A DNA stretch of 64,000 nt from Paeniglutamicibacter sulfureus (GTDB lineage: Bacteria > Actinomycetota > Actinomycetes > Actinomycetales > Micrococcaceae): contig NZ_JAULBL010000002.1 in NCBI RefSeq assembly GCF_030512175.1, positions 494,149 to 558,148 on the forward strand, written 5' to 3'. The notes beneath the pieces are model-generated. The model had not been told where the DNA came from. It saw only the letters and a program-made list of their open reading frames with translations, and did no database searches. This document shows, in pieces, positions 1,706 to 20,901 of the stretch (its first letter is position 1; each line of letters starts with the position of its first letter). The position numbers were made by a program, and so were the translations under genes.

Positions 1706-2162
1706 GATCCGCCCGGAAAGCGCCACCAGCTCAACGGTGCCGTCACCGTCCTCGAGCCCCGAGCAACTACCGAAGGAAAGCGACAAGTTCGCTGGCCTTC
1801 GGTTGCGCCGGGGCTCGAGTGCGTTTCGCAACGACTAACTCCGATGCATGTTTGGGGCCCTAGAACTTCGGGCGAGGGCTCGACCATTCAGCCAGTTCCG
1901 TTTCCGACGTGAATTCTCCCGCGGGAAGTTGGATTGGGTGCGGGATCGGCAGCGCCATGACGCCGTCGACTTCCCGTGTCTCATGCTTCAGGTTCCCAGC
2001 GCAAGGAGGCGGTTGCCGCCGTCACCGAATAGAACCGGAAACAGCCGCAACCGCCTACGCCAGTCCTCAAGGGACTGTATTTTATTTGTGGTGCCGGTCG
2101 GGATCCCAGTCAGCAGGAATCTATCCCACCGCTGTCATGCCCCGAACTGCGGCGGACGTTTC
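1706..2162. other. gene-free stretch with an inverted repeat
   Basis: No convincing coding sequence is seen between the possible small gene and the MFS gene that ends at 2163. The stretch contains a 10-bp perfect inverted repeat, AGGCGGTTGC (2007-2016) and GCAACCGCCT (2047-2056), with a 30-nt loop and no T-run. It may be a weak terminator or simply a degenerate remnant. Confidence 0.4.
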
Positions 2163-3614
2163 TTAGCTGTTGCTCTTCTGGGCGAGGCGTCGCTGCAGGC
2201 GCTGGCCGGTCTTGTCCGGGTTGAAGAAGATGACAGAAAGGATGCCTGCCGCCAACAGCAGCCCACCGGCGATGGTAAGCGACTGGTTTACGCCGGAGAT
2301 CATGTTGCCGATCATTTCGGCCGTCTCCGGGGTGCCCTTGGCGGCGGTCCGGTAGCCGGCCTGCTGCATGAACATGCCGACGGCTGTCGGTGAAATGATG
2401 GCACCAATCGAAGCGACTCCACCGAGGGTTGCCATGATCACCGGTCGCTGTCCGGCACCGACGGCGAAAGCCATGGCCGAGGGAGCCATCGGATAGATGA
2501 CACTGAAACCGGCACCGAGTGTCAGCAGCACGACGACCATCGGTCCAGAGACGAAGGGCAGGGCCAGGAAGCAGGCCCCGGCCAGGACGAGGCAGATGCC
2601 GAACGGTGCGGCGAGTGCAACGCGTACCGACTTGCCACGGCGCATTTGGTTTCGGCCCATAAAACCGAGGGCCAGCAGGACAACCGCGCCGAAAATCCAC
2701 GGGAAGGTGGTGATCAGTGCAACCATTTCCGGGGACATATTGACGACGCCGGCCAGGTACTTCGGCGACCAAGTGGTGAGGAAGCCTTGCGTCCAGAAGT
2801 TGGTGAAACCGCCGAAAGCGGCAACGAGGAACGATGCGCTGAGCAGGATCCAGGTGACCTTGACCGGCTTTTGGTCTTCATACTGCTTGGTCCGCTGGTC
2901 CGAGGCTATTTCGGCGGCGGTCTTCTCGCGGACCGGGGCATTGGCAACCGCTTCGGCTTCTGGTTCGGCCGTTTCCTTGTTCTTTGAGCTGCCGAATGGT
3001 CCGTCGGCACCCAGGATGAACCAGGCGATGACCCACGCCAGGCCTACCAGGCCGAGGGCGCCGAAGGCCCATCGCCAGCCGAAGTTGCTGATGATAAAGG
3101 CGAGGAACGGGGCTGCCAGAACCGGTCCCAGCGTGGAACCGATGGCAATGAGGTTGCTGGGCAGCGCCCGGTCGGCCGGTTTGAACCATGAGTGGGCCGA
3201 AGAGAGTGACATGGCAGTGGCTGGGCCTTCGGCGCCGCCTAGCAGGATGCGGGTGACCAGAAGGATAGCTGCACCGCCGCCGAAGAGCATCGGGAACTGG
3301 AGCACGGCCCAGGCAAGACCCATGGCGAAGATGACCCACTTGACAGAGGTGCGGCCCGCGATCAGGCCGAGGAGCACGGAGCCGATGGCATAGAGGAAGA
3401 AAAACGCACTGCCTATCATGCCGAACTGAACGGTGCTGATGCCTAGTTCAGGGATCGCCTTGTAGGCAACGAGACCGAGTACTGCTTTGTCGGCGAAGGC
3501 AACGATCTGGAAGAGGACCAGCATGATCGTGATGATCCATGCGCGGCGGTTCATTCGCCCGTTGCGGATTGCACCGCCCAGGGTTCGGTCGCTCTGGAGC
3601 TGTGTTGAAGACAT
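2163..3614 (-). CDS. MFS permease of the anion/aromatic acid symporter type, distal gene of the iacG-iacH operon
   Basis: A 483-residue protein with about 12 membrane helices in two halves, joined by a charged cytoplasmic loop (around residues 215-265) rich in E, K and A. The N-terminal half, with FADKAVLGLV in helix 1 and the GGAEGPATAMSLSSAHSWF stretch, fits the anion:cation symporter branch of the MFS that carries organic acids. ATG at 3614 is chosen because TTGAGG lies 7 nt upstream; an upstream in-frame start at 3677 has none. It follows the amidase iacH on the same strand, so uptake of indole-3-acetate or a pathway intermediate is the natural guess. Export is not excluded. Confidence 0.85.
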   Translation of the reverse strand: MSSTQLQSDRTLGGAIRNGRMNRRAWIITIMLVLFQIVAFADKAVLGLVAYKAIPELGISTVQFGMIGSAFFFLYAIGSVLLGLIAGRTSVKWVIFAMGLAWAVLQFPMLFGGGAAILLVTRILLGGAEGPATAMSLSSAHSWFKPADRALPSNLIAIGSTLGPVLAAPFLAFIISNFGWRWAFGALGLVGLAWVIAWFILGADGPFGSSKNKETAEPEAEAVANAPVREKTAAEIASDQRTKQYEDQKPVKVTWILLSASFLVAAFGGFTNFWTQGFLTTWSPKYLAGVVNMSPEMVALITTFPWIFGAVVLLALGFMGRNQMRRGKSVRVALAAPFGICLVLAGACFLALPFVSGPMVVVLLTLGAGFSVIYPMAPSAMAFAVGAGQRPVIMATLGGVASIGAIISPTAVGMFMQQAGYRTAAKGTPETAEMIGNMISGVNQSLTIAGGLLLAAGILSVIFFNPDKTGQRLQRRLAQKSNS

Positions 3615-3723
3615 TGGCACCTCAAGGTGTGTGTGGGAGTAGGGTGGCCGGAAATCCGGCAGATTTCGAGTGACCATTGAAGACTATGTGGTGTGCAGCA
3701 CAGCCGATAATTGCTGATTCCCG

Positions 3724-3758
3724 CCCCTGAATACGGGTAATCCTCGCCCGAGTAGGGG
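3724..3758. promoter_or_regulatory. GC-rich inverted repeat between iacH and the MFS gene
   Basis: The 150-bp gap between iacH and the MFS permease contains nested inverted repeats: CCCCT (3724-3728) with AGGGG (3754-3758), and inside them CGGG with CCCG. The hairpin could be an attenuator, a processing site or a regulator binding site. A GGTAAT element within it resembles the GGTAGT elements of the two iac promoter regions. Confidence 0.35.
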
Positions 3759-3764
3759 AAAGCC

Positions 3765-5075
3765 TTAGTGCTGGGCCAGGGAAGGCTCAAGCCACTCTGC
3801 GATGTCCAGCAGGCCACCGGGATGCCCCGGGTTGCCGATGACCTGGATGCCCAGCGGCATGCCCGCTGCATCGCGCAGCCCGGCCATGGTGACCGCCGGT
3901 AGACCGAGGGCCTGCCACGGGCGGCTGAGGATCGGGTCGCCAGTCTTGGCCAATCCTGCGGGTGCCGATCCGGGTGCCGCGGGGGCGATGATGGCGTCGA
4001 AGTGCTGGAGCCGATTAAGGATGTCCTTGCGGGCTGCAGCGAGTCCTGCCATGGCCCGGTGGAAATCGGCGTCGGCCAGAAGGTCGCCACTGGACAGGAG
4101 ATCGGCCAGCGGACCACTGACCTCATTCTTCCGCGACAGCAACCATTTGTGCGTGCAAGCGGCCTCGTATGCCATCACGCTCATATGCAGCGGGACCAGG
4201 TCCCGCACGGCTGCGGCCGAGCCCAGCGACTCGACCAATGCGCCCCGCGTTCTGGCGGCGGATATGGCCAAGTGCAAGCCCGAAAGCATGTCACCGGAGA
4301 CAGGGGCGATGTCGGTACCGTCCCAAACCAGCAACCTGGGTGGGCGCCTTGCCCCCTGGGCGGGTGCCGGAGTGCCGGAGATCGCGGTGTAGGCAATCCG
4401 CAGGTCCGCGGCAGTGGCGGCCAGAAAGCCGATCGAGTCCAGGCTGTGGCTCAGCCCGGTGACGCCGTCCGTTGGGATCGCGTGGATCGGGGCGACCAGG
4501 CCGGCCACCCCGCAGTAGGAAGCGGGACGGGTGAGGGAGCCAGCTGTCTGCGTGCCGAAAGCGAACGGGACCATGCCACTGGCCACCGCGACGGCCGATC
4601 CGCTGGATGATCCGCCCGGAGTGTGTGGTGCGGTTCCACGGGTCGGCCGGTGAGGGTTGATGGTGGGCCCGGGTGCGAAGTATCCGAACTCGGTGGTGAC
4701 CGTCTTGCCCAGCACGATGCCCCCGGCACCCCGCAGGGCGGCGACGCAGCCGGCATCGGCGCTTGCCGGTGGTGCCTGGTCGAAGATCGCCGAACCGCAG
4801 CCAGTGCGCATCCCTGCCACGTCGATGATGTCTTTCACCCCCGCCGGGGTGCCCCATAGTGCCCCCCGCGATCCCTCCGGGATGTCGGTCAAGCCGTGGG
4901 CCGCGGCGATGGCAGAGTCGGCATCGACGCTTACCCAGGCCCGGAGCTCCGGATCCAGCGCCTCGATCCGTGCCAGCGATTCGCCGACCAGATCCAGCGG
5001 TGTGGCCACTCCGGTGGCCAGGCGCTGGATAGAGGCTGCAAGCGATACGGGAGCGGCGGCTTCAACTGCTGTCAT
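3765..5075 (-). CDS. iacH: amidase-signature hydrolase IacH of the auxin degradation set
   Basis: A 436-residue amidase-signature protein. The expected Ser-cisSer-Lys layout is visible: Lys in GVKDIIDVAG near residue 80, the serine-rich GGSSSGSAVAVASG near 155, and a nucleophile region GTQTAGSLTRPAS near 180, a mild variant of the usual GTDTGGSIR. Such enzymes hydrolyse amide bonds in the cytoplasm. In known iac clusters an amidase (IacH) always accompanies the ring-opening genes, presumably acting on a nitrogen-containing intermediate; its exact substrate is not settled. It lies 62 nt downstream of iacG on the same strand. Confidence 0.8.
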   Translation of the reverse strand: MTAVEAAAPVSLAASIQRLATGVATPLDLVGESLARIEALDPELRAWVSVDADSAIAAAHGLTDIPEGSRGALWGTPAGVKDIIDVAGMRTGCGSAIFDQAPPASADAGCVAALRGAGGIVLGKTVTTEFGYFAPGPTINPHRPTRGTAPHTPGGSSSGSAVAVASGMVPFAFGTQTAGSLTRPASYCGVAGLVAPIHAIPTDGVTGLSHSLDSIGFLAATAADLRIAYTAISGTPAPAQGARRPPRLLVWDGTDIAPVSGDMLSGLHLAISAARTRGALVESLGSAAAVRDLVPLHMSVMAYEAACTHKWLLSRKNEVSGPLADLLSSGDLLADADFHRAMAGLAAARKDILNRLQHFDAIIAPAAPGSAPAGLAKTGDPILSRPWQALGLPAVTMAGLRDAAGMPLGIQVIGNPGHPGGLLDIAEWLEPSLAQH

Positions 5076-5137
5076 GATGTGGAATCCTTGGTCATCGACG
5101 AATCGCGTATTGGCGGCCCGCTGTGGTTGGCAGTGGG

Positions 5138-5644
5138 CTAGACGGCGACCGGCTGGCCGATGGGGTGGAAGGCGCGGTTGAAGTACACGAGTCCGCTGTT
5201 GTCGTTGTTGACCTCGACCCGGTCAAGCCGGATGAAAAGGACCGAATGCGAGCCTTGCTCGGTAATGGCTTCGATGGTTCCGATGCACTTGACGTGGGCG
5301 TCGGCGAGAACCGGGACGTCGGTGTCTTTCTCCCAGATGTCCCAGGCAAAGCGCTGGTCCATCGGAACTTGGGTCGCACCGGAGAAATGGCGCGCCAGTT
5401 CCTCTTGCTCACCTGCAAGGATGTTGATGCCGACCTTGCCGTTGTTCTTGAATATGTCGTGGGCGGCACTGTTCTTGTTCACGCACACCAGGATGGTGGG
5501 CGGCGAATCGGTGACGGAGCAGACGGCGCTGACAGTGATGCCCAGCCGCCCGTGCGGCCCATCCGTGGTGATGATACTGACCGCGGCCGGAAGGTGGGCC
5601 ATCGCAGTCCGAAAGTCCGTTTGGATTTGGGTTAGCTGGGTCAT
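5138..5644 (-). CDS. iacG: flavin reductase IacG
   Basis: A 168-residue protein of the HpaC-like flavin reductase family, with features such as LPAAVSIITTDG, GITVSAVCSV (flavin site) and GINILAGEQEELARHFSG. It should reduce FAD or FMN with NAD(P)H and hand it to a flavin monooxygenase, here most likely IacA. The start at 5644 is supported by CAGGAGAGCACC directly upstream; the frame extends 12 codons further without a ribosome binding site. It is first in an operon iacG-iacH-MFS, divergent from the response regulator. Confidence 0.85.
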   Translation of the reverse strand: MTQLTQIQTDFRTAMAHLPAAVSIITTDGPHGRLGITVSAVCSVTDSPPTILVCVNKNSAAHDIFKNNGKVGINILAGEQEELARHFSGATQVPMDQRFAWDIWEKDTDVPVLADAHVKCIGTIEAITEQGSHSVLFIRLDRVEVNNDNSGLVYFNRAFHPIGQPVAV

Positions 5645-5896
5645 GGTGCTCTCCTGATCGGATGGTGCCGCCCGCTGCAAGTGGGTGGCTGGGGACTACC
5701 CGGAGGCGTCTTATTCAGACTTCCGCGGGCTTGGTTAGTAATCTATGAACTGAATCACTTCCGGGATATCCCCAGTAGCCCTAGGGTTCGGGGCAACTGG
5801 CCCAATGCGGATAGGTAGTTCCCTTAGTGTCCGGCCGTTGCAGGTCCTTCAGGGAATGGCTATGGTTCCATGTCGTAGCAGTCGAAATTGGAGACC
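5645..5896. promoter_or_regulatory. divergent promoter region between iacG and the response regulator
   Basis: A 252-bp divergent intergenic region. It shares short words with the iacA/histidine-kinase intergenic region: CTGAATCAC (5750-5758, also 15135-15143), and ATAGGTAGTT (5811-5820), whose complement AACTACCTAT is at 15220-15229. A further GGTAGT occurs inverted at 5700-5695. These are candidate response-regulator binding sites; the assignment is inference. Confidence 0.5.
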
Positions 5897-6538
5897 ATGA
5901 CTAACACAACGATGACCACTGAACCGATCGTGTACATCGTCGATGACGACGACGAGTTATGCACCTCGCTGGCTTGGCTTCTGGACTCTGTCGATATTGC
6001 TTCGCAGAGCTACAACGACGTGGCGTCTTTCCTTGATGGGTACGACAGGGAGCGAGCCTCCTGCCTGGTTTTGGATGTTCGGATGCCCCGGACCGGAGGG
6101 TTCGCCCTTCAGGAGACCTTGAACCAAATTGGGGCACCGATCCCGATCATCTTCGTGTCGGCCCACGGCGACGTCCGCATGTCGGTGCGTGCACTGCAGC
6201 AGGGCGCAGTTAATTTCTTCGAGAAGCCCTACGATCCCCAACAGATGCTCGACGCCGTGCAGGAGACACTCGAACTGGCCGAGGTGCGCTTTGCCGAATC
6301 CGCCGAGCGGAAACAGGTACTGGAACGGCTGCGCACCCTGACTCCGCGCGAACGCGAGATCCTGCTGCTGGTCATCGACGGACTGCCCAGCCAGAACATC
6401 GCCCGGAAACTGGGCACTAGCGTGAAGACGATCGACGTGCACCGGGCACGGATCAAGTCAAAGACAAATGCGGAGAGCATATCAACGCTGGTCAGGGACG
6501 TGCTGAGCCAGCGGATCGACCTCGCCGTAGACCTGTAG
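5897..6538 (+). CDS. FixJ/NarL-type response regulator, probable iac regulator
   Basis: A 213-residue two-component response regulator. The receiver domain (residues 10-125) shows the acidic pocket VDDDDE, phospho-acceptor Asp60 in LVLDVRMP, VSAHGD and the conserved Lys in FFEKPYD. The C-terminal LuxR-type helix-turn-helix (about 145-205) carries LTPREREILLLV and GTSVKTIDVHRARIKSK. FixJ, TodT and StyR have the same layout. ATG at 5897 is used, preceded by GGAG with short spacing. It is divergent from iacG and convergent with the ABC permease. Its likely partner kinase lies 9 kb away at the other end of the iac genes, so auxin-dependent control of both operons is inferred. Confidence 0.85.
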   Translation: MTNTTMTTEPIVYIVDDDDELCTSLAWLLDSVDIASQSYNDVASFLDGYDRERASCLVLDVRMPRTGGFALQETLNQIGAPIPIIFVSAHGDVRMSVRALQQGAVNFFEKPYDPQQMLDAVQETLELAEVRFAESAERKQVLERLRTLTPREREILLLVIDGLPSQNIARKLGTSVKTIDVHRARIKSKTNAESISTLVRDVLSQRIDLAVDL

Positions 6539-6600
6539 GGGACTCGGCCCACGGACGGGCCCGCCCGGAGGAGGCATGACCACCGCTTTCCTTCGATTTT

Positions 6601-6648
6601 GACGCGAGAATGGCCCGGTTCCCAAGGAAACCGGGCCATTCTCGCGTC
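6601..6648. terminator. long perfect hairpin between convergent genes
   Basis: Arms of 20 bp (6601-6620 and 6629-6648, reading GACGCGAGAATGGCCCGGTT on the left) are perfectly complementary around an 8-nt loop. They lie between the ends of the convergent response-regulator and ABC permease genes. No T-run follows on either strand, but position and strength suggest a shared bidirectional terminator. Confidence 0.8.
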
Positions 6649-6656
6649 ACAGCCGG

Positions 6657-7478
6657 CTAGCTCTTCACCCCGTAACGGGCAAGGTACCTGCCCGAGGCAA
6701 TGCGCAGGATCCTGTCTATGGTGAAGCCCAACAACCCTAGGGTGATGATTCCAACGAAGGTCCAGTCGATGCGTCCGTAGTTTCTTGCTTGCCAGATCAA
6801 CGCGCCCAGGCCGTGCTGGGCGGCAACGATCTCGGCGGAGACTATGGTGAGGAAGCTGTTTCCCATCGCCAGCCGGGCACCGGTGACGATGCCCGGAATA
6901 GCCGAGGGCAACACTACGGAGGTCATGATCTGGCGCTGGCTGGCCCCCAGATTCGATGCCGCGTTGATCCTGTTCTCCGGGATGGCCAGCACCGCCGCGA
7001 TGGTGCTCACCGTGACGATGAATACCGAGGTGTAGAAGATCAGCACAACCTTTGACGTCTCACCGATGCCGAACCAGATCACGGCCAGCGTCACGAAGGC
7101 GATGGGCGGGATAAACCTGAAGAACTCGATATACGGGTCCAACAGCTGCCGAACGACGTTCAGGCGACCCATGAGGATGCCGATGGGTGCGCCCACCGCG
7201 ACGCCGAGCAGCCAGCCAATCAGGATCCGCTGCGTAGAGGCCCAGATGCTCACCCAAAGTGTTCCGTCGACGGTCAGCTCGACGGCGGCAGCGGCAACTT
7301 CCATCGGCGAAGCCACGGCCGTGGGGCCGTACCACCAGGCCACGACGCTCCACAGCGCGAGACCGATGGCAGCCGATGCGGCCCACCATAGAAGCTGACG
7401 CGCTCCTTGCCAGGCTTTTTTGTTCCGTGGCGGTTCAACGACAGGCTGCACGCGAGGTGCTGTTTCCAGGGCGCTCAT
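6657..7478 (-). CDS. ABC transporter permease, NitT/TauT type
   Basis: A 273-residue inner-membrane permease of the SsuC/TauC family with about six helices and the cytoplasmic coupling loop region ASNLGASQRQIMTSVVLPSAIPGI (near residues 175-198), which contacts the ATPase. Its start overlaps the end of the ATPase gene by 4 nt, so the two are translationally coupled. Such importers carry sulfonates, nitrate, pyrimidine precursors or aromatic acids. It is the last gene of the operon that begins with iacA, so import of indole-3-acetate or a related aromatic acid is the working hypothesis. Confidence 0.88.
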   Translation of the reverse strand: MSALETAPRVQPVVEPPRNKKAWQGARQLLWWAASAAIGLALWSVVAWWYGPTAVASPMEVAAAAVELTVDGTLWVSIWASTQRILIGWLLGVAVGAPIGILMGRLNVVRQLLDPYIEFFRFIPPIAFVTLAVIWFGIGETSKVVLIFYTSVFIVTVSTIAAVLAIPENRINAASNLGASQRQIMTSVVLPSAIPGIVTGARLAMGNSFLTIVSAEIVAAQHGLGALIWQARNYGRIDWTFVGIITLGLLGFTIDRILRIASGRYLARYGVKS

Positions 7479-8308
7479 CCTTCGTCATCCAATCCTTGGG
7501 CACGCAATGACGCGGCGACTTCCTCGCGGATATCAGCGCGCAGTTGTTCGTAGACGGAAACGACCTCAGCGGAGGTGCGCTCGCGGGGGCGGGGTAGATT
7601 CAGGTCGTAGACACTCTTGAGTCCTGCCTTCGGCCCGGAGGACATGACCACGACGCGGTCGGCCAGCGCCACCGCCTCGTCGATATCGTGGGTCACGAAC
7701 ACCACGGTGCAGCCGGTTTCTTCCCAGATCTGGGTCAGCTCCGCCTGCATCACGGCCCGGGTTTGAGCATCGAGGGCACCAAACGGTTCGTCCATGAGCA
7801 CGAGCGGCTGCTCGTTGGCCAGCACCCGCGCGATCTGTACGCGTTGACGCATACCACCGGAGAGCTGGTTCGGGAACTTTGCCCCAGCCTTTCGCAATCC
7901 CACCATGGAGAGGAAACGGTCGGAAATCCTTGACTGTTCGGCCTTAGAAGCGCCGTGCATCTTCGGGCCGTAGGAAACATTGGCCGCCACGCTCATCCAG
8001 TCGAACAGCGCGTCCGATTGCTGGAAGACCATTCCCGCATGCGGGTTGGCCCCAAGCACCGGCTCTCCGGCGCAGGTGATGGTTCCCCCGGTGACTGCCG
8101 TGAATCCGGCAATCGATGACAGAAGCGTGGACTTGCCGCATCCACTGGGTCCCAGAAGGCAAACGAATTCTCCGGGCCTGATGTCGAGGCTGATGCCCTC
8201 CACGATTTCGGTCGAACCGAAGCCGATCGACACCGAATCCAACTGGACGCTGGTTCCCGAGGTTTCACCGCGGGAACCGTCCCTCGGGGCTGTGGCAGTC
8301 GTTGTCAT
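7475..8308 (-). CDS. ABC transporter ATPase, NitT/TauT type
   Basis: A 277-residue nucleotide-binding subunit of the SsuB/TauB family. Walker A is LGPSGCGKSTLL (near residue 57), the signature is LSGGMRQRVQIA, Walker B is LVLMDEPFGALD, and the switch His is in FVTHDIDEAV. ATG at 8308 is preceded by GAGGTTCC; an upstream start at 8344 would overlap the binding-protein gene and lacks a ribosome site. It lies 10 nt after the binding-protein gene and overlaps the permease gene, forming a compact three-gene importer in the iac operon. Confidence 0.9.
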   Translation of the reverse strand: MTTTATAPRDGSRGETSGTSVQLDSVSIGFGSTEIVEGISLDIRPGEFVCLLGPSGCGKSTLLSSIAGFTAVTGGTITCAGEPVLGANPHAGMVFQQSDALFDWMSVAANVSYGPKMHGASKAEQSRISDRFLSMVGLRKAGAKFPNQLSGGMRQRVQIARVLANEQPLVLMDEPFGALDAQTRAVMQAELTQIWEETGCTVVFVTHDIDEAVALADRVVVMSSGPKAGLKSVYDLNLPRPRERTSAEVVSVYEQLRADIREEVAASLRAQGLDDEG

Positions 8309-8318
8309 GGCAGGAACC

Positions 8319-9290
8319 TCATTTCTTGTTGATCCAGTCCACAAGAATGCGCTTGTCCAGCTCCGGCATCTCCTTCAGCACGCCCGTGCCGACAAAGTAG
8401 TCGGCCATGGTATTTCCGGTCTCGAGGTCCTTGCCGGTAAAAGAACGGATCTCGTAGTCGATCTGGTCGATGGCCTGAAGGATCTGCTCCTTGGGGACCT
8501 TCGTGTGCGCCAGGGTGGCCGTCACTGCGCGCTCCGGTTCGGCTTCCACGATTCTTGCAGCCTCGGCCAGGGCCGAGGCGACTTTCTGCGCTGCCTCGTC
8601 ACGGGCGTTGACTAAGTCGGAACGGCCGATCACCCAGTGGTTGTAGAACCAGTCATAGTCGCCGGTGGTTTCTGCCACAGTGCCAGCACCTTCGGCGACG
8701 GCGTTGCTTGGCCACGGCTCCCACATGACGAAGCCGTCGGCGTCGCCGCGCTTCAGCAGGGCGGAGGCGTCATTCGGCGTAGCGGTGATGAACTCGACCG
8801 ATCCGGCATCGATGCCCTTGGCCTCGAGGTACTTGGCCGTGGCGATCTCGCTCAGACCGGGCACGACCACCATTTTCTTGACGTTCTCGGGCTTGACGCC
8901 GTTGCGCAGGACTACCTTGACGTATTCGCCCGAGGTTTGGGTGGCGAACAGCGCAATCAGTTCCGGGCTCTGCTGGAACTGGGTGATGGTGGTGGCGTCC
9001 GAGCTGCCTGCTAGGTGGACCTGTCCGGCAGCGAGTGCGTCGACGGCTTCGCCGCCGCGGCCGAACTGGATCAACTCCACTTCGACACCGGCTTTCTTGA
9101 ACAGTCCCTCATCCTCGGCAACGAAGTAGGGGGCATACGTGGTGTCGATGCCCACGGCGATCTTGACCGGTCCGTTGGCGTCGACCTTGGTGTTTCCCTC
9201 GGCCGGGCGTGAGCAACCAGTGGTTACAGCAAGTGAGAGGGCAGCGACTGTTGCCGCCACGATTTTGAGGTAGCTGACGTGCTTCTTCAT
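8319..9290 (-). CDS. substrate-binding lipoprotein of the NitT/TauT-type importer
   Basis: A 323-residue extracytoplasmic binding protein. The N-terminus has a lysine start, a hydrophobic core and a lipobox-like TTGC at the putative lipidated cysteine, so it should be membrane-anchored. VKIAVGIDTTYAPYFVAEDEGLFKKAGVEVELI is the usual opening of SsuA/TauA/NMT1-like domains. The start at 9290 was chosen for the signal peptide and an AAGG upstream; the much longer frame to 9659 runs antisense to iacF coding sequence. It follows iacF by 28 nt from stop to lipoprotein message start, hence the link to auxin catabolism. Confidence 0.88.
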   Translation of the reverse strand: MKKHVSYLKIVAATVAALSLAVTTGCSRPAEGNTKVDANGPVKIAVGIDTTYAPYFVAEDEGLFKKAGVEVELIQFGRGGEAVDALAAGQVHLAGSSDATTITQFQQSPELIALFATQTSGEYVKVVLRNGVKPENVKKMVVVPGLSEIATAKYLEAKGIDAGSVEFITATPNDASALLKRGDADGFVMWEPWPSNAVAEGAGTVAETTGDYDWFYNHWVIGRSDLVNARDEAAQKVASALAEAARIVEAEPERAVTATLAHTKVPKEQILQAIDQIDYEIRSFTGKDLETGNTMADYFVGTGVLKEMPELDKRILVDWINKK

Positions 9291-9327
9291 GTAGGTGCCT
9301 TTCGAAATGGATGAATTAAGGGCAGAT

Positions 9328-10284
9328 CTAGAAGAGCTCCAATAGCAGGCGCTTGCCGCAGGTCCGGGAAACGCAGGTGGCCATCTGGTCGTTTGCCGCC
9401 TTCTCTGAAGTGGAGAGACAGTTGTCGCGGTGCTCGGGCACGCCATCGAGGACGCCCATGACGCAGGTGCCGCAGATTCCCTCCTTGCAGGAGGTATCGA
9501 CCTCGATGCCGTTTTCCTGGAGCACGTCCACGATTGAGCGATCGGCCGGGATCTCGAAGATCTCGCCGGTGTCCAGCTCCACTTCGAAGGCAGTGTCGTT
9601 GGAGGTGTCGATCTCCTCGGCTTCGAAATGCTCGATGTGGACCTGGTCCTCGCCGACAACCGGGGCGAACGCTTTGCGGACGTTGTCCATGAAGCCCACC
9701 GGGCCGCAGGTGTAGACGTGTACGCCGGTATCGGCGTCCCGGGCGAGCGCAGTCATGATGGTGCCCTGCTCGTTGCGCGGAACCCCGAAGTGGAAGCGCA
9801 CCGATTCGGTGAAGCCGCAGCGCTCCTCGAGCAGCTCCGTGAAAGCTGCCTCCGCGTGGGAGCGGGCGAAGTAGTGCAGCTCGAAGTCGATGCTCGAGCG
9901 GTGCAGGTTGTAGGCGATGCTGATCATCGGGGTGATGCCGATGCCCGCCGCCACGAGGATGTGGCGGTCGGCATCGGTGGCAACCTTGAGCAAGTTGCGC
10001 GGCTCGCTGACCTCAAGTTCGGTGCCCACCGAGACATCGCCGTGTAGCGCGGCGGAACCGCCGCGCGAGGCAGGTTCGAGCTTCACCGCGACCAGGTACG
10101 AGCCCTCGTCAGGTGCATTGCAGAGGGAGTACTGGCGAGTGACCTCCGTGGGGCCGACAACGTCGATGTGCGCCCCCGCCGGGGCCGGGGCAAAGTCCAA
10201 CCCGTCGGCGCGTTCCAAACGAAATGTCTTGATGCTGCTGGTTTCGTCCGAAACCACGGCCACTTTGACCCGGACCTTCTTCAT
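9328..10284 (-). CDS. iacF: oxygenase reductase component IacF (FMN, NAD and 2Fe-2S domains)
   Basis: A 318-residue phthalate-dioxygenase-reductase-type protein. The FMN-binding part has TRQYSLCN (near residue 70), the NAD part has AAGIGITPM and YTCGPVGFM, and a C-terminal plant-type 2Fe-2S ferredoxin has DTSCKEGICGTCVMG plus a later Cys in HRDNCLS. It passes electrons from NAD(P)H to a Rieske oxygenase, here IacC/IacD. VanB-type reductases of this size are the IacF component in known auxin-degrading clusters. The gene is preceded by GAGG and separated from iacE by 69 nt. Confidence 0.88.
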   Translation of the reverse strand: MKKVRVKVAVVSDETSSIKTFRLERADGLDFAPAPAGAHIDVVGPTEVTRQYSLCNAPDEGSYLVAVKLEPASRGGSAALHGDVSVGTELEVSEPRNLLKVATDADRHILVAAGIGITPMISIAYNLHRSSIDFELHYFARSHAEAAFTELLEERCGFTESVRFHFGVPRNEQGTIMTALARDADTGVHVYTCGPVGFMDNVRKAFAPVVGEDQVHIEHFEAEEIDTSNDTAFEVELDTGEIFEIPADRSIVDVLQENGIEVDTSCKEGICGTCVMGVLDGVPEHRDNCLSTSEKAANDQMATCVSRTCGKRLLLELF

Positions 10285-10353
10285 GTCCGTACTCCTCTAA
10301 ATTGGGTGGGGCTTCTAACCTGTGGGGCCGCCATGCGCCGATCGCTGAGGCGA

Positions 10354-11142
10354 TCAGCGCATGAACAGCCCGCCATTGATGTCCCAGCTGGCACCGTTGA
10401 CCGATGCCGCCTCGGGGGAGGCAAGCAGGGCGACTGTTGAGGCGATGAATTCCGCGGAGCCGAGCCGGCCCACGGGAATGTTCGCCTTGACTGCCTCCAG
10501 CTTGTCGGCGGCAACCGTCTCGTAGACCACCGGAAGGTCAAGCGGACCCGGGGAAACCGAGTTCACCGTGACGCCGCCGGAGGCCAGGTCGCGGGCAAAC
10601 ACCTTGGTGAGCGTGCCCACCCCGCCCTTGGCCGCGGCGTAGTGGGCGCCGGTGGCCGTGCCGCCGTTCTGGCCGGCCAGCGAACCGATGTTCACGATGC
10701 GACCATAGCCGTTTCCGGCGAAGTGCTTGCCGAAGACCTGGCAGCCCAGGAAAACGCCGTCGAGGTTCGTGGAAACGATCTCGGAGAAGTCCTCCGGGCT
10801 GATGTCCATCAGCGGCTGGACCTGGGAACGGCCGGCGTTGTTGATCAGCACGTGTGCAGCTCCCCAACGCTGCACCGCGGACTGAAGGGCCGCCTCGAAG
10901 TCCTCCTTGCGGCGGACATCGAGGACCGCGGCTGCTGACGTCTTGCCGCTTGGATCCAGCTCGTCGGCCAGTTCCTGGACCGGTTCGATTCGGCTGCCGG
11001 TGGCGAGCACCGAGTAGCCGGCAGCGTGCAGGGTGCGCGCAATGACGGCGCCCAGGCCGCGGGTGGCGCCGGTGACGATGGCGACCTGGCCGTTGTCGAC
11101 CCGTTTCCCGGCGGTCGTCTGATTGTCTGTCGTCGTAGTCAT
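10354..11142 (-). CDS. iacE: short-chain dehydrogenase/reductase IacE
   Basis: A 262-residue classical SDR. The NAD(P)-binding glycine motif TGATRGLG is near residues 25-32, NNAG near 103, and the catalytic YAAAK (Tyr-x3-Lys) near 170. The C-terminus ends in a substrate loop and DINGGLF. In iac clusters IacE is an SDR that acts on an oxidised indole-acetate intermediate early in the pathway. It lies 9 nt after iacD in the same operon. Confidence 0.85.
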   Translation of the reverse strand: MTTTTDNQTTAGKRVDNGQVAIVTGATRGLGAVIARTLHAAGYSVLATGSRIEPVQELADELDPSGKTSAAAVLDVRRKEDFEAALQSAVQRWGAAHVLINNAGRSQVQPLMDISPEDFSEIVSTNLDGVFLGCQVFGKHFAGNGYGRIVNIGSLAGQNGGTATGAHYAAAKGGVGTLTKVFARDLASGGVTVNSVSPGPLDLPVVYETVAADKLEAVKANIPVGRLGSAEFIASTVALLASPEAASVNGASWDINGGLFMR

Positions 11143-11151
11143 TCCGGGGCC

Positions 11152-11685
11152 CTAGAGCAGGAATCCGGAGGCGGTGACGGCCCCGTCGGAGTTGACCAGG
11201 CGCACGACCTTCAAATCCAGGCGCGGTTTGCCGTCGGCGAAACTGATCCGGTGCTCCAAGTCGGCTGCCAGCAGCAGGTGCTTTTCGCGCTTGAATCCGA
11301 CGATGATCTGCGCCGAGCGCAGCGTGACCGACTCACCGTCGTTAGACGTGACGGTGAAGCGGGAGATGGTGCGTGCGGTGCGAGCCGATGCGACCGCCGA
11401 CATGGAATAGCCCTCGGTTAGCCGGGTCACGCGCATCCGGCGCATCCGGGCATCGTCGTAGACCATGTTCAAGCCGGACTCGAAGTCATCGGTGTCCGGA
11501 TCGATCGGGATCACATACTTGCCGTCGGGGGTCCACAGGCCCTCCCAGGCCACGTAGTCCTTGGCGTCGAGCAGTGTCGCCTCGTGCCAGATTAGCGCGA
11601 TGGCCTTGGAGACCAGCGGATCGAGCAGCGCGTCGGATGCGAAGCCGTTTTCAAGGGGGGCGGTCAGCGTGCTTTCGCTAGTCAT
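11152..11685 (-). CDS. iacD: ring-hydroxylating oxygenase beta subunit IacD
   Basis: A 177-residue protein of the small-subunit family of ring-hydroxylating dioxygenases (cystatin-like alpha+beta fold), with FWHEATLLDAKDY-like IWHEATLLDAKDY, WEGLWTPDGKYVIP and RMRRMRVTRL. It has no metal of its own and assembles with the Rieske alpha subunit. Its start overlaps the end of iacC by 8 nt, indicating translational coupling and fixed stoichiometry. Confidence 0.87.
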   Translation of the reverse strand: MTSESTLTAPLENGFASDALLDPLVSKAIALIWHEATLLDAKDYVAWEGLWTPDGKYVIPIDPDTDDFESGLNMVYDDARMRRMRVTRLTEGYSMSAVASARTARTISRFTVTSNDGESVTLRSAQIIVGFKREKHLLLAADLEHRISFADGKPRLDLKVVRLVNSDGAVTASGFLL

Positions 11686-12955
11686 CGCTCATCATCTTCT
11701 TCCACTGTGAGTAGGATTCGCGCATGCCCGATTCGTCGGTCACGTGCGAGGTTTTCCAGCCTTCGTCCACCGTCTTTTCGCGGCCCAGGCCGCGGTTGAC
11801 CATGATGGGCATTTCGGGGTTGGCGTAGGCGCCGCGCTGCACGCGGTCCCAGGCCTCGGAGTCATCCGGGGTGCCGAAGCCGAACGGTCCCTGGAAGTGC
11901 TCGTGGATGCGCAGGCGTTCGCGGTTGACGCTTTCCGGTCCGCCGTCCAGGCCCAGGGCCAGGTGCTGGATCTCGGTCTCGTTGACCGAGATCGGGCGCA
12001 GGACGCGGAAGAAGGACATTGACATGGCAACGTTCGGGAAAAGGTTCAGGTTGAACCCCGCGCCGTGCATCGAGCGCACGACGCGGCGGACCTGATCTGC
12101 CGGCATCGTCTCGGAGAGCTCGTCGATGATGTGGCGGAAGCGTTCTTGCAGTTCCTCGGTTCCGTCATCGGCATCCAGATCGACGTGCTCCGGGACCATG
12201 ATGGCGACGCTGTGGCCATTGCCCAGCGCATGGGTCACCGCGTTCTCGTCGGTCATGAAGGAGAGCATGTCGGCCGTTTCGGCGTCAACGGAGGCCATCC
12301 ACGAACGGTGCACGATCGGGAAGTGGTAGCCGTCGGTGGTGTTTTCCAGCTGGATCTTCCAGTTGCCGTCGAAGCGGAACTTGTGCTCGCCCTGGACCTT
12401 GATCCCGTAGCCGGCACCCTGCATCATGAAGCGGTCCATCCAGAGCTTTGCGTCGCCCAGGAAGTCCTCGAGCGGTTCGATGTCCGCGTTGAAGGAGGCG
12501 AAGATCATCCCGGCGTAGCTTTCGACGCGCAGTTTCTGCAGCGGCATGTCCTTCTTCTCGATGACGCCCTCGTAGCCCTCGGGGTACGGGATACCGCGCA
12601 GCTGGCCGTCGAGCGAGTAGGACCAAGAGTGGTACGGGCAGGTGAAGCCGTTGGCCTTGCCCTTGTCCGGCTCGCAGACCGAGGCGCCGCGGTGGCGGCA
12701 GCGGTTGAGCAGGACATTGAACGACCCCTTGCGGTCGCGGGTGACGATCACCGGCTGGCGACCGATCATGGCCTTCTTGAAGCTGCCCTTGTCCGGGATC
12801 TCGCTTTCGTGGGCCACCCAGACCCAGGTCTTGTAGAAGATCTTCTCCAGCTCGGCTTCGAAGATATCCGGATCGGTGTAAAGCTGCCCGGCGACCCTGT
12901 CGGTCGAGGCAAGTGCGGAGAAGCCGTCTTGGTTCTCCATGATGGGGGTGCTCAT
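11678..12955 (-). CDS. iacC: Rieske oxygenase alpha subunit IacC
   Basis: A 425-residue ring-hydroxylating oxygenase large subunit. The Rieske 2Fe-2S ligands are Cys86-x-His88 and Cys106-x2-His109 (CRHRGASVC and CPYHSW). The mononuclear iron site follows in ENTTDGYHFPIVH near residue 205. Fed by IacF, it should add oxygen to the indole-derived ring on the route to catechol, as proposed for iac clusters of Pseudomonas, Acinetobacter and Paraburkholderia. AAGGAGT upstream of ATG 12955 fixes the start. Confidence 0.88.
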   Translation of the reverse strand: MSTPIMENQDGFSALASTDRVAGQLYTDPDIFEAELEKIFYKTWVWVAHESEIPDKGSFKKAMIGRQPVIVTRDRKGSFNVLLNRCRHRGASVCEPDKGKANGFTCPYHSWSYSLDGQLRGIPYPEGYEGVIEKKDMPLQKLRVESYAGMIFASFNADIEPLEDFLGDAKLWMDRFMMQGAGYGIKVQGEHKFRFDGNWKIQLENTTDGYHFPIVHRSWMASVDAETADMLSFMTDENAVTHALGNGHSVAIMVPEHVDLDADDGTEELQERFRHIIDELSETMPADQVRRVVRSMHGAGFNLNLFPNVAMSMSFFRVLRPISVNETEIQHLALGLDGGPESVNRERLRIHEHFQGPFGFGTPDDSEAWDRVQRGAYANPEMPIMVNRGLGREKTVDEGWKTSHVTDESGMRESYSQWKKMMSDD

Positions 12956-12978
12956 CAGTGACTCCTTGGGGATGGTGG

Positions 12979-13488
12979 CTAGTGTGGGGTGGCGAGGTTC
13001 GCCGGGGAGAGCGCCACGAGGCGCTGCGTGCGGAAGGTCTTGATCCGGGCCATGGCCCCGTCTAGTTCGAAGTCCACCGTGATGCGGGCGGCAACCACTT
13101 CCTGGCGGCCGTCCGTGTACGCGGAGACCTGTTGCATGATCCAGCTGCCCGATGCCGTGGGGAACGAGATGTTGATGCGCCCCTCGCCCAGCACATGGGC
13201 GTTTGCGGTGAACGGGCCGCCGGGCAACAGGTGGCTGCCCAACATGCGGACGATGGCGTCCCTGCCGTTGTAGCTGCCGAACTTCTCGCCGTATTCAGGC
13301 CCGATGCCCTGCCAAGTCGCGTCCTCGGTGAACAGCGCGCCGAGTTCGGCTAGGTCGAATTCCGGCTGCGGAACGTCGCACAGTTCCATGTAGCGGGCGA
13401 TGATCCAGCGGATCGATTCACCGGCCTCCAGCAGTTGAAGTCGTGTTTCAAACCCGGCGACGTTCGTGGTGGCACTGATTCCTGCCAC
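12979..13488 (-). CDS. iacI: SnoaL/NTF2-like protein IacI
   Basis: A 169-residue protein with an NTF2/SnoaL-like fold signature: an N-terminal helix pair (RWIIARYMELCDV), then FTEDATWQG and a long C-terminal beta sheet region. A protein of this fold, IacI, belongs to the conserved auxin-degradation set; its role is not established. It starts with GTG at 13488, 2 nt after the iacB stop, with only a weak ribosome site, so it probably depends on coupling to iacB. Confidence 0.78.
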   Translation of the reverse strand: MAGISATTNVAGFETRLQLLEAGESIRWIIARYMELCDVPQPEFDLAELGALFTEDATWQGIGPEYGEKFGSYNGRDAIVRMLGSHLLPGGPFTANAHVLGEGRINISFPTASGSWIMQQVSAYTDGRQEVVAARITVDFELDGAMARIKTFRTQRLVALSPANLATPH

Positions 13489-13490
13489 GG

Positions 13491-13877
13491 CTACTTGGCT
13501 ATCTCGACATCGCTGCGGATGGTCAGGGCACGGCCCATGCGGGCCTCAATGTGCGCATAGGTCCACAGCGCGTGGTCGTCGTCGACCATCGTGGTGCGGA
13601 ACAGGTTGCACACGGCCTTGACCGTTTCCTGTGTGTCGACATCGGCCATCACGTAGCAGGTCCAAGGCCATCCGGCAGAGGGACCGACCATGTGGGAGTC
13701 GTCGTCCATGTTGCCGATGACATCGACACCGGGCATTGCGGCCATGGCCGAAAGCATGCTGGAGAAGGCGACCCACACCGGGCCGATTTCGTTCTTGGGC
13801 AGGCTGAAGAAGTTCTGGTTGATGCCGATGCAGAACAAGGTGCGCAACGGTTCGGGGCGGGCATCGCTCGCTGTCAT
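13491..13877 (-). CDS. iacB: small conserved protein IacB
   Basis: A 128-residue protein with no catalytic motif that I recognise; it has an aromatic-rich centre (WPWTCYVMADV, ALWTYAHIEARMGRAL). Position and size match IacB, a small protein of uncertain function in auxin-degrading clusters. It is preceded by AAGGA and sits between iacA and iacI. The assignment rests mainly on synteny. Confidence 0.7.
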   Translation of the reverse strand: MTASDARPEPLRTLFCIGINQNFFSLPKNEIGPVWVAFSSMLSAMAAMPGVDVIGNMDDDSHMVGPSAGWPWTCYVMADVDTQETVKAVCNLFRTTMVDDDHALWTYAHIEARMGRALTIRSDVEIAK

Positions 13878-13924
13878 GGTTGTTCCTTCGAGGGGTTCGT
13901 GCGGTGGGTGAGCAGGTGGTCTGG

Positions 13925-15067
13925 TTAGATGAAGCCCGGGATGACCGGGGGCTGGCCCATCAGGACCGAGCCAGTGCCGTCATACATGCCATCGCCGAGG
14001 AACGCGTGCTGGGTGACGACGGCCGAATCGCGCAGATGACGCTGCAGCGGGTTCCCGTCGTAGATGGCCGCTGTCCCGGAGAGCGAGTAGGCGGTGTTGA
14101 CGGCTTGGGCGCCGGCCTTGGCGACGTGGGTGGAGGCAAGGCGAAGCAGAGCCTTTTGGGAGTCGGTGGCCTGTCCGTTGGCCACTACCGTGGCATAAGT
14201 TTCTTCGGTGATCTCATAGAAGAAGGCCCGTGCCGAACGAAGCTCGGCCTCGGCCTTTGCCAGATCGATCCGGTAATACGCGCGATCGGCGAGCTTCGGG
14301 GCTCCGGTGATGCCCGTCCGTCCGGCGCCGATCTGTGTCGCATAGTCAAGCGCGGCACGGCCCACACCGAGGTTCACGACGGCCAAGACCTGGGCGGCGT
14401 AGGCGATCGTGGGGTAGTGGTAGAGCGGCTCATCAATCATCGGTTCGCCGCCGCGGATGAAGGTCCAGTCCTGATCCACATCGACCCCGTTAACGACAAG
14501 GTCGTGGCTGCCGGTTCCGTGCAGGCCAATGACGTCCCAGTTGTCTTTGATGATGACCTGGTCCGGGCGCAGCAACGCGGTGCGCGGCTTGCCTGCGGCG
14601 GTCTCGCCACCGGCGATGCCGACGCCAAGCACGTCGGCGCCCTTGCAACCGCTGGCGAACTTCCAGGTGCCCTTGATGTGGAACTTCCCGTCCTTCACCG
14701 GTGCCTTCTGGACCGGAAAGAGTCCGCCGGCGAAAGCCAAGTCGGGTCCGTCCTTGTACAATTCGGCCTGCGTGTCGACGGGCAGTGCGGCCAAGTACAC
14801 GAGTGCTGAGCCGAAGCTCGCTACCCAACCGCTCGAGGCATCGACGGTGGAGATCAGTTCGATCTTGCGGAGAAATTCCGCGGGCGGGAGCGCGTCGCCA
14901 CCGAACTGGAGCGGGGTGGCAGCGCGGTAGATTCCGGCCGCCTTGAATGCGTCGATAACGTCCTTGGGTACGAAGCGGTTCGTGTTGAACTCCTCGCGTC
15001 GCCGGTCGATGAGTTCCAGGACCGTGGTCAGCGCGTCCTGCGCGGGTGCTTCGGCAACGGTCGTCAT
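13925..15067 (-). CDS. iacA: flavin-dependent indole-acetate monooxygenase IacA
   Basis: A 380-residue member of the acyl-CoA dehydrogenase/HpaB-like flavin monooxygenase group, with GWVASFGSA, the beta-domain motif GTWKFASGCKGADV, WDVIGLHGTGSHDLVV and a helical C-terminal domain ending in AFLGDGMYDGTGS. It lacks the usual dehydrogenase context, and with the reductase IacG it should form a two-component oxygenase for the first attack on the indole ring. ATG at 15067 has AGGAG 8 nt upstream; the further start at 15103 does not. It is the first gene of the ten-gene operon. Confidence 0.86.
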   Translation of the reverse strand: MTTVAEAPAQDALTTVLELIDRRREEFNTNRFVPKDVIDAFKAAGIYRAATPLQFGGDALPPAEFLRKIELISTVDASSGWVASFGSALVYLAALPVDTQAELYKDGPDLAFAGGLFPVQKAPVKDGKFHIKGTWKFASGCKGADVLGVGIAGGETAAGKPRTALLRPDQVIIKDNWDVIGLHGTGSHDLVVNGVDVDQDWTFIRGGEPMIDEPLYHYPTIAYAAQVLAVVNLGVGRAALDYATQIGAGRTGITGAPKLADRAYYRIDLAKAEAELRSARAFFYEITEETYATVVANGQATDSQKALLRLASTHVAKAGAQAVNTAYSLSGTAAIYDGNPLQRHLRDSAVVTQHAFLGDGMYDGTGSVLMGQPPVIPGFI

Positions 15068-15264
15068 GGAGAGGGCTCCTAGCTTGTAGCTTTTCTGAGG
15101 CAAGTACGGATGTCGAGGGTCTTGCTGGTGTTGTCTGAATCACGGTATTTACCCAATTACTGCCCTTCAATGGGTGTTTACGTGCCTCCAGACAAAGAAA
15201 GATTGATTCCAACTGAAGTAACTACCTATTGCGGCGAAGCCGGACTGGGGTAGAACTGGAAGCC
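15068..15264. promoter_or_regulatory. divergent promoter region between iacA and the PAS histidine kinase
   Basis: This 197-bp region drives iacA leftward and the kinase rightward. It holds an imperfect inverted repeat, CACGGTATTTACCC (15141-15154) facing GGGTGTTTACGTG (15172-15184), with inner ACCCA/TGGGT. It also carries CTGAATCAC (15135-15143) and AACTACCTAT (15220-15229), both shared with the iacG/response-regulator region. Confidence 0.5.
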
Positions 15265-16749
15265 GTGAATACGCAAAATTACGAACCTTCCGAGGCCGAT
15301 GCCCGGATTCTGCTCACAGGGCTGGACCACTGCCTCCTGATGCATGACGCGGAGTCGAAGGACATCCTCTGGGCCAACCCGGCGGCGTGCCGGGTGCTCG
15401 GCTTCACGCTGGAGGAGTTGCGACCGCTGAAAGCTGATGACATGAGCAGCCTGGCCGAACCCTACAGCCGGACCGTCGGGCGCCGCTGGCTGCAGGATGC
15501 CGTGGTGCACGGTGCCAGCCGCACGCAATGGATGTACCGGAACAAGGAAGGGCAGGATTTCCTGACTGAGGCGCTGGCCCGGCACGTAATTCTGCCCGAG
15601 CGCGAGGTGGTGCTCGTTGAATTCAGGGACATGGAACGCGAGGAGCAGCTCAAGAGCGGGCTGGAGCGGACCAAGGGACGGCTAAACGCCTTCATCGGGA
15701 ACATGGGCGAGGCCATTCTCGTCGTGGGTTCCGACGGGCTGATTTCTTATGCCAGCAATTCGGTCTTTCCGCAGTTGGGTGTGCACCCGGACGAGGTTGT
15801 TGGGCGGTATTTCACTGATTTGTGCCTTGGCGGTGCGGCTATAACCTTTGCCCGGGTGTCGGCCGAATGCGCTGCGGATGCCGGCATGGTCAGCTGCCGA
15901 CTGGAACTGCGCACGCCGCAGGGTGAATCACGCTGGTTCGGGGCCGCCTGCCAGAGCATCGACCTGAAGCATGACCTGTCCGGGACGTTGATGTTCCTCC
16001 ACGACATCACCGATCGCGTGTCTGCGGACATCGAACGCGAGCGGGACCAGGAACACCTGAACTACCTGGCCCGCTACAACGTCATGGGCGACATGGCGAT
16101 GGCCCTTTCGCACGAGTTGGGCCAGCCCCTCGGCGCGGCGACGAACTTTCTGGACGGGGTCAAGCGTCGATACCGGGCGGGCAAGATGAGCGCGGTCGAC
16201 CTGGAGTTCGGGCTGGAGAACGCGCAGCGCCAAATTGAGCGCGCCAACCAGATCCTGCGCAGCTTGCGTGGATTCGTGGGCACGCTGGAAACGTCCGAAC
16301 AGCACGTTGACCTGAACGCCGTGGTGCGGGACTGCATGTACTTCGTTGAGCTCGTGGCCTCGCGGCACTCCGCAACGCTAGAGATGGCACTGGATCCCGG
16401 AGAACTTCCGGTGCTCTGCGAGAAGGTGCTGATCGGCCAAGTCGTGCTAAACCTGTGCCGCAACGCGATAGAGGAGATGTCTCGCTTCCCAGAGGAACGG
16501 CGCGTGGTGACTCTTGAAACGGCATGCGAAGATGACTCAGCGGTCTTCCGGGTCATTGACCGCGGATCGGGACTTTCCGGCTTCCCCGACGGAAGGATCT
16601 TCGATGGCGCATTCACCACGAAGGCCGATGGGAGCGGCCTCGGGCTGGCACTCAGCCACCGGATCGTTACCCGGCACAACGGAACCATCAATGCAGTGGA
16701 AAACCCTGGTGGCGGGTCGACCTTCGCGTTCAGGTTGCCGTTGTGCTGA
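15265..16749 (+). CDS. soluble double-PAS sensor histidine kinase, probable iac sensor
   Basis: About 494 residues with no membrane segment or signal peptide. Two PAS domains (about residues 10-130 and 145-265) precede the kinase core. The phospho-acceptor is His283 in ALSHELGQPLGAATN, the N box is NLCRNAIEEM, and the G boxes are DRGSGLSG and TKADGSGLGLALSH. The architecture is FixL/TodS-like, fitting direct cytosolic sensing of a small aromatic ligand. It is divergent from iacA and probably pairs with the response regulator at 5897. The GTG at 15265 is preferred; a TTG at 15229 would add 12 residues without a ribosome site. Confidence 0.85.
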   Translation: MNTQNYEPSEADARILLTGLDHCLLMHDAESKDILWANPAACRVLGFTLEELRPLKADDMSSLAEPYSRTVGRRWLQDAVVHGASRTQWMYRNKEGQDFLTEALARHVILPEREVVLVEFRDMEREEQLKSGLERTKGRLNAFIGNMGEAILVVGSDGLISYASNSVFPQLGVHPDEVVGRYFTDLCLGGAAITFARVSAECAADAGMVSCRLELRTPQGESRWFGAACQSIDLKHDLSGTLMFLHDITDRVSADIERERDQEHLNYLARYNVMGDMAMALSHELGQPLGAATNFLDGVKRRYRAGKMSAVDLEFGLENAQRQIERANQILRSLRGFVGTLETSEQHVDLNAVVRDCMYFVELVASRHSATLEMALDPGELPVLCEKVLIGQVVLNLCRNAIEEMSRFPEERRVVTLETACEDDSAVFRVIDRGSGLSGFPDGRIFDGAFTTKADGSGLGLALSHRIVTRHNGTINAVENPGGGSTFAFRLPLC

Positions 16750-16930
16750 CGCCTGAACTGCCAATCGACAAATGAGACGGCGTGGCCGCGGACCCGAGGG
16801 GGCGGCACCGAACCTTCTGCGACAGCAGAAGATTTACCTCACACACCGCCATGGGGGCATGGAACGTGGCCGCGCAGCTGGGTGCCCGGAAGTCAACATG
16901 CAACCAACCGCATTGGCTCCCAATGCTAAC

Positions 16931-16969
16931 GAGGGCCGGTACCGGTGCGAAGCACTGGAACCAGCCCTC
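16931..16969. terminator. hairpin between the kinase and the convergent MFS gene
   Basis: An 18-bp stem with two mismatches and one G-T pair closes on a GAA loop (left arm GAGGGCCGGTACCGGTGC). It lies between two convergent genes and has no T-run. It is probably a bidirectional terminator. Confidence 0.55.
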
Positions 16970-16995
16970 GAAAAGTCTGCTCAATCAGCTGACGC

Positions 16996-18534: not shown

Positions 18535-18554
18535 GGTGTTCCACGTTCCTTCGG

Positions 18555-20855: not shown

Positions 20856-20901
20856 GCTTGAGAAATATCCTTAGGTCTTCAGGCTTATAAGGAGCCGACG
20901 A

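Follow-up and report, generated by a model that had tools for sequence, protein, structure and literature searches.

An iac-type auxin degradation cluster in a strain-variable block of Paeniglutamicibacter sulfureus, with a malonamidase-like amidase and a conserved gene for a 94-residue protein

Loci for degradation of the auxin indole-3-acetic acid (IAA) have been reported from 221 genera in five phyla, Actinobacteria among them (PMC9613470), and Arthrobacter and Rhodococcus are listed among the IAA-catabolising genera (PMC7481731). Pseudomonas sp. Root71 has been studied as an IAA degrader, in work in which iac-like operons rose with IAA and in which the Pseudomonas iac loci are described with a two-component system and no MarR regulator (PMC11630574). 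Rhodococcus PBTS2 grew on IAA with no iac homologues detected, so that another actinobacterial route to IAA use may exist (PMC7002392). Here we describe an iac-type locus in a 64,000-nucleotide stretch of the soil bacterium Paeniglutamicibacter sulfureus (assembly GCF_030512175.1, contig NZ_JAULBL010000002.1, positions 494,149 to 558,148), which we call the window and whose numbering we use throughout. Because of the earlier reports, neither the phylum nor the two-component regulation of this locus is new (PMC9613470, PMC7481731, PMC11630574), and the iac cluster as such is ordinary, actinobacterial auxin-degrading loci having been published already (PMC9613470). What is distinctive here is an amidase that is not IacH and an overlooked gene for a 94-amino-acid (94-aa) protein; in searches of an open-licence library, no listed title or abstract opening dealt with actinobacterial iac gene content or with this protein, which is not proof of absence.

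Both the sequences and the order of the genes give good support for assigning the cluster to the iac type. The iac genes, together with those of the amidase and of the 94-aa protein, are given below, with percentages denoting identity to the Root71 locus (L043), a locus tied to the Pseudomonas sp. Root71 of PMC11630574 through the strain name.

13925-15103, minus strand: IacA, flavin monooxygenase of acyl-CoA dehydrogenase fold (PF08028; HsaA-like, below cut-off); 62%
13491-13877, minus strand: IacB, small protein without a Pfam match; 58%
12979-13488, minus strand: IacI, SnoaL-like (PF13577); 43%
11678-12955, minus strand: IacC, Rieske dioxygenase alpha subunit (PF00355 and PF00848; Rieske motif); 75%
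11152-11685, minus strand: IacD, dioxygenase beta subunit (PF00866); 52%
10354-11142, minus strand: IacE, short-chain dehydrogenase/reductase (SDR; TGxxxGxG, NNAG and YxxxK motifs); 64%
9328-10284, minus strand: IacF, oxygenase reductase (Fer2/NAD_binding_1); 50%
5138-5680, minus strand: IacG, flavin reductase (PF01613); 61%
3765-5075, minus strand: amidase-signature protein, malonamidase-E2-like, with amidase motifs, putatively in the iacH role; not an IacH orthologue
1421-1705, plus strand: 94-aa protein without a family assignment, encoded at the left end of the strain-variable block; start codon uncertain

The genes iacA, B, I, C, D, E and F form a single minus-strand run, followed by an ATP-binding cassette (ABC) importer, beyond which lie iacG, the amidase gene and a gene for a major facilitator superfamily (MFS) permease, again on the minus strand; the two-component genes are on the plus strand. 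This layout, obtained from a listing of open reading frames (ORFs) and from Pfam and NCBIfam scans, bore out the genes, order, strands and coordinates proposed in an earlier sequence-only reading. Active-site motifs were present in the Rieske, SDR and amidase proteins, and homologues of iacC and iacD are adjacent, the feature by which auxin-degrading loci have been defined (PMC9613470). Compared protein by protein, eight of the nine Iac proteins match the Root71 locus at 43-75% identity, the orthologues of IacA, B, E, F, G and I all being present (43-64%) in the same relative order.

The ninth protein is the amidase. For its comparison, genome contigs with IacC were scanned and the best 80 of 100 confirmed loci were kept: 21 loci in 18 genomes of Arthrobacter, Rhodococcus and Streptomyces, the other 59 being of Pseudomonadota. 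With Root71 IacH the amidase shares 30% identity (80 bits in BLASTP, 88.7 bits in phmmer) and scored 88.3 bits against Acinetobacter IacH (phmmer), but with malonamidase E2 it aligned along almost the whole of its length, at 197 bits. Root71 IacH is 51% identical to its Acinetobacter counterpart and, in a PDB comparison for which the Root71 query had extra residues at its start, scored higher with the amidase 2dc0 (164 bits) than with malonamidase (107 bits). In the actinobacterial loci, relatives of the window's amidase showed 40-51% identity over most of their length (85% in genome G002, and 53% in one partial match), while matches in proteobacterial loci did not exceed 98 bits; in the phmmer comparison the ORF of the L007 amidase had been taken too far upstream, and just its amidase part aligned. 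In a plasmid collection, the three actinobacterial records with IacC gave 44-47% amidase identity and the other rows less than 42%, among 25 listed of 925 records. By these comparisons the amidase is malonamidase-E2-like, common to actinobacterial iac loci and not orthologous to proteobacterial IacH. The sequence-only reading had claimed all nine iac protein types and a complete cluster; eight types stand by orthology, and completeness holds only if the amidase performs the role of IacH. Replacement of IacH is not confined to Actinobacteria, because the 429-aa amidase of Marinomonas is 28.6% identical to IacH of Pseudomonas putida, in loci still named iac (PMC11373566).

The conserved 94-aa gene had been missed in the sequence-only reading. 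The window and G002 agree in 66 of its codons and show synonymous differences in 25 and non-synonymous ones in 3, with 25 of the 29 base differences at third positions, which points to strong purifying selection. In an alignment of 19 sequences, 35 columns are invariant, many of them W, H, D or Y. The start is uncertain, because G002 lacks the ATG used in the window. A minus-strand ORF at 1238-1831, antisense to the 94-aa gene, was rejected as a gene. The protein gave no match in Pfam (E<=10), NCBIfam (0.001), PHROGs (1) or the PDB (phmmer, 10), and its profile found just an antibody chain in the PDB, at E 0.65; plasmid records annotate it as a hypothetical protein. It is modelled as beta-beta-beta-alpha-beta-beta-beta (predicted local distance difference test, pLDDT, 86.9; predicted template-modelling score, pTM, 0.75). 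Foldseek found no PDB match to the model at E<=0.001, and the best matches in a viral library (TM score about 0.5, E 0.003 or worse) were uncharacterised phage proteins, from which no function follows.

In the samples examined, the 94-aa gene tracks actinobacterial iac clusters. It occurs in seven of 395 genomes of the family, the same seven that carry IacC (the listed handles agree, 368 negatives standing outside the list; Fisher 3.5e-15, relatedness ignored). Among iac-positive genomes it is present in 18/18 actinobacterial and 0/32 proteobacterial ones (Fisher 5.5e-14), the latter representing 32 of the 59 proteobacterial loci. At the loci themselves, tblastn detected the gene in 18 of the 21 from actinobacteria, the exceptions being L005, L014 and L018, whose genomes nevertheless are among the 18 carriers; in the 59 proteobacterial loci tblastn gave nothing except a chance piece at E 0.73, and the profile gave nothing better than E 2.4 in these loci together with L093 and L095. 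The genus of R. koreensis has the gene in 10 of 28 genomes, the IacC status of the 18 negatives lying outside that comparison; four of the ten were already known to be iac-positive, and the other six, found via the 94-aa protein alone, had iacA-G beside the 94-aa gene in every case (6/6). Of 72,556 plasmid records three carry the gene, and these are the actinobacterial records among the 30 with IacC at E<=1e-140; a search at E<=10 adds two partial Streptomyces matches at E 2. A sample of 396 genomes of the phylum adds little, the source genome being the sole carrier of IacC or of the 94-aa protein. We conclude that the 94-aa protein probably belongs to iac as a component specific to this lineage, with a putative role in it.

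The whole cluster lies in a single variable segment:

1215-16996 (15.8 kb), strand not applicable: strain-variable block holding the whole cluster, absent from the same-species genome G013

G013 matches the window at 1-1214 (97.4%) and 16997-22379 (98.7%), has 93 bp of its own sequence between the two, and lacks both IacC and the 94-aa gene. This comparison shows presence or absence, not direction. Gain is likelier than loss because just 2 of 15 genomes of the genus and 7 of 395 of the family have IacC, and the block was probably acquired. Its G+C content is 62.8%, that of the right flank 65.7% and that of the 1.2 kb left flank 62.4%; no tRNA gene was found in the window. A strong, terminator-like hairpin at 16930-16970 (z -5.84 as single-stranded DNA) lies at the block's right edge, between the kinase gene and a DHA2 permease gene. 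The minus-strand M20 amidohydrolase gene at 18555-19820 was rejected as the cluster's auxin-conjugate hydrolase: it is outside the variable block, is present in G013 too (98-99%) and has no match in the 80 related loci, and its PDB ranking places N-acyl-glutamine aminoacylase (6slf) first, then YxeP, with an IAA-amino acid hydrolase homologue (1xmb) third. In G002 the cluster is split, with the kinase gene and iacA-F at ~912-920 kb and the regulator, iacG, amidase, MFS and 94-aa genes at ~954-960 kb; about 34 kb thus separate iacF from the response regulator gene (G002:C1 ~919.7-954.1 kb, partly L097 and L112). In Arthrobacter sp. AZCC_0090 an ORF of 1155 aa, named from its look as rhamnosidase-like, occupies the slot between iacF and the regulator (L006:13712-17179).

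Taken together, these results make it quite probable that the window carries a strain-variable catabolic block for IAA use, in an actinobacterial variant of iac. Several points weigh against this reading. Iac is a protein name in none of the NCBIfam families listed, and the assignment rests on comparison. The locus lacks an orthologue of IacH, a protein that belongs to the original nine-gene set though not to the iacC/iacD definition. The binding protein of the ABC importer has no match in any of the 80 related loci, and the importer is not supported as a conserved part of iac. The label of genomes as iac-negative depends on a single protein, IacC at E<=1e-150; the compared genomes are related, so that the co-occurrence counts are not independent; and the sets overlap in at least one genome, as G158 of the family set and G789 of the named set appear, by contig and coordinates, to be the same genome, that of A. 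hankyongi.

From homology, gene order, presence or absence and co-occurrence we infer a substrate, enzymatic steps and any role of the 94-aa protein as follows. The block would enable a member of the Micrococcaceae, the Arthrobacter family, to exploit IAA, a plant hormone. IacA, supplied with reduced flavin by IacG, would oxidise IAA to 2-oxindole-3-acetic acid, as suggested by homology and by the chemistry of PMC7225977. IacCD and the reductase IacF, perhaps with IacB and IacI, would take dioxindole-3-acetic acid (DOAA) to catechol, and the malonamidase-like amidase would stand in for IacH in the actinobacterial variant. Catechol would then enter the ortho pathway via catA, about 480 kb from the cluster. 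That catechol is handled elsewhere, as the sequence-only reading had supposed, agrees with the genome: no catA-type dioxygenase (PF00775) occurs in the window, where other cat genes were not sought, and the six genome matches all lie outside it. One of the six, at ~480 kb, is above cut-off as an actinobacterial catechol 1,2-dioxygenase (467.9 against 404.4 bits) and adjoins a muconate-cycloisomerase-like ORF, which is below its own cut-off. Another ORF named from its look as muconate-cycloisomerase-like follows the amidase gene in Arthrobacter sp. AZCC_0090 (L006:20425-21276).

Regulation and transport would depend on the remaining genes of the block:

15229-16749, plus strand: PAS histidine kinase, FixL-like (FixL below cut-off); 40% identical to the Root71 locus
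5888-6538, plus strand: response regulator of FixJ/LuxR type (Response_reg and GerE; best NCBIfam match FixJ, below cut-off); 55% identical to the Root71 locus
6657-9290, minus strand: ABC importer (permease 6657-7478, ATPase 7475-8344, NMT1/SsuA-type binding protein 8319-9290)
2163-3677, minus strand: MFS permease (MFS_1, Pfam), a possible transporter of IAA or an intermediate

The PAS kinase and FixJ-like regulator would act in lieu of IacR, the MarR repressor. The genome has 65 matches to PF12802, none of them in the window; the nearest, a MarR gene 0.74 kb to its left (G000:C9:493250-493408, minus strand) was rejected as IacR, being outside the variable block. The Pseudomonas loci are likewise reported without MarR (PMC11630574), IacR being usual otherwise. 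The importer starts 37 bp downstream of iacF; the ORF of its binding protein as listed (8319-9659) overlaps iacF, and a downstream ATG gives a protein of 323 aa (8319-9290). In favour of conservation of the importer, three Pseudomonas loci (L024, L036, L037) have, beyond iacG, an ABC ATPase 44-45% and permeases 27-32% identical to those of the window; several loci gave generic ATPase matches of 25-39%. In G002 (90%) and in L115, L118 and L127 (51-74%), a relative of the MFS permease is encoded close to iac genes or to the 94-aa gene.

The position of the 94-aa gene changes from locus to locus: it lies between iacI and the regulator, iacI and iacC, the amidase and the regulator, the amidase and iacG, or the regulator and the kinase, or else beside the kinase or the MFS gene. 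A functional tie is favoured because its company is constant while its place changes. A far-reaching reading, less likely than not, would make the 94-aa protein a novel enzyme of actinobacterial IAA catabolism, or the obligate partner of one, that acts with the amidase in a step between DOAA and catechol on a non-proteobacterial route. This step is the most attractive guess because, as of 2020, both the reactions from DOAA to catechol and the role of IacB were still open (PMC7225977); the protein might work with the amidase, or with IacB or IacI, on a post-DOAA intermediate. That it is instead an accessory to signalling or transport, say by partnering the PAS kinase and FixJ-like regulator or by helping them through ligand binding, and not a catabolic enzyme, is conceivable but doubtful. 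The 94-aa gene does adjoin the regulator or kinase gene, co-directionally and often within ~150 bp, in L007-L013, L015-L017, L019-L021, L115, L118 and L149-L151. Nevertheless, it lies between iacI and iacC in L022, L023, L026 and L027 and between the amidase gene and iacG in L116 and L117, and its presence does not simply follow that of the two-component pair, since homologues of both kinase and regulator occur in proteobacterial loci that lack the 94-aa protein.

It is improbable that the 94-aa gene is a passenger, inherited with a single ancestral actinobacterial iac cluster and dispensable for IAA use. The sampled actinobacterial loci may well share ancestry, as a tree of 91 IacC sequences (11 rows without a group label) places the Pseudomonadota on one side of a branch (support 95/58). 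A passenger would hardly have been kept through so many rearrangements, on a different contig from IacC in G158 and ~40 kb from iacC in G002, or have been held so constant by selection; furthermore, G794, G797 and G798 have two copies of the gene alongside two IacC loci, though G806 has two copies with one known IacC locus. The root of the IacC tree is unreliable, with paralogue branches of length 10, and L001 was left out as too short. The window's IacC falls into a group with those of G002, A. hankyongi and Arthrobacter AZCC_0090. L010 and L022 belong to a Rhodococcus metagenome-assembled genome whose Cyanobacteriota label is erroneous, which explains three changes counted for Actinomycetota.

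We also think it unlikely that some other indole or aromatic acid is the main substrate of the cluster and IAA a side substrate: several indole derivatives are converted by the C. glathei enzymes IacA and IacE (PMC7225977), and the amidase and importer are unlike the proteobacterial set, yet IacC and its Root71 counterpart are 75% identical.

Bacteria on roots influence root growth by removing auxin. The 94-aa gene, found with every actinobacterial and no proteobacterial iac genome examined, offers a concrete entry into the DOAA-to-catechol question and is a candidate marker of actinobacterial IAA degraders, while replacement of the amidase cautions against naming iacH by position alone.

The Root71 locus shares with the window the order kinase, A-B-I-C-D-E-F, regulator and G, in the same orientations, but differs in three respects: a genuine IacH is encoded between iacI and iacC, an ORF judged AraC-like by its appearance separates iacF from the regulator gene, and there is no 94-aa gene. 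The claim of a distinct actinobacterial version therefore survives for the non-IacH amidase and the 94-aa gene; the order, the divergently placed kinase gene, the regulator and iacG are common to this Pseudomonas locus. The cluster of P. putida 1290, iacABCDEFGRHI, has the same nine-letter gene set by type and differs, by description rather than sequence, in its MarR regulator, its order and a 374-aa IacH (PMC11373566). By description too, the Marinomonas cluster, iacABICDEFG followed by the 429-aa amidase, resembles the window in gene order and differs in having a MarR iacR and a hydroxy-acid dehydrogenase gene (PMC11373566). The gene content of the window (A, B, G, I) is iac-type; iad-like loci are characterised by iad-type genes and by anthranilate as the end product. 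The actinobacterial loci of the RefSeq survey are of the same phylum and were defined by the same iacC/iacD rule; the main text portion of that survey gives no gene-level account of them and no 94-aa protein (PMC9613470). Although the iac loci of Rhodococcus, Arthrobacter and Streptomyces (L005-L023, L026, L027) vary in gene order, have other transporters and show no match to the binding protein of the window's importer, they encode the same set of proteins, with the malonamidase-like amidase and the 94-aa protein among them.

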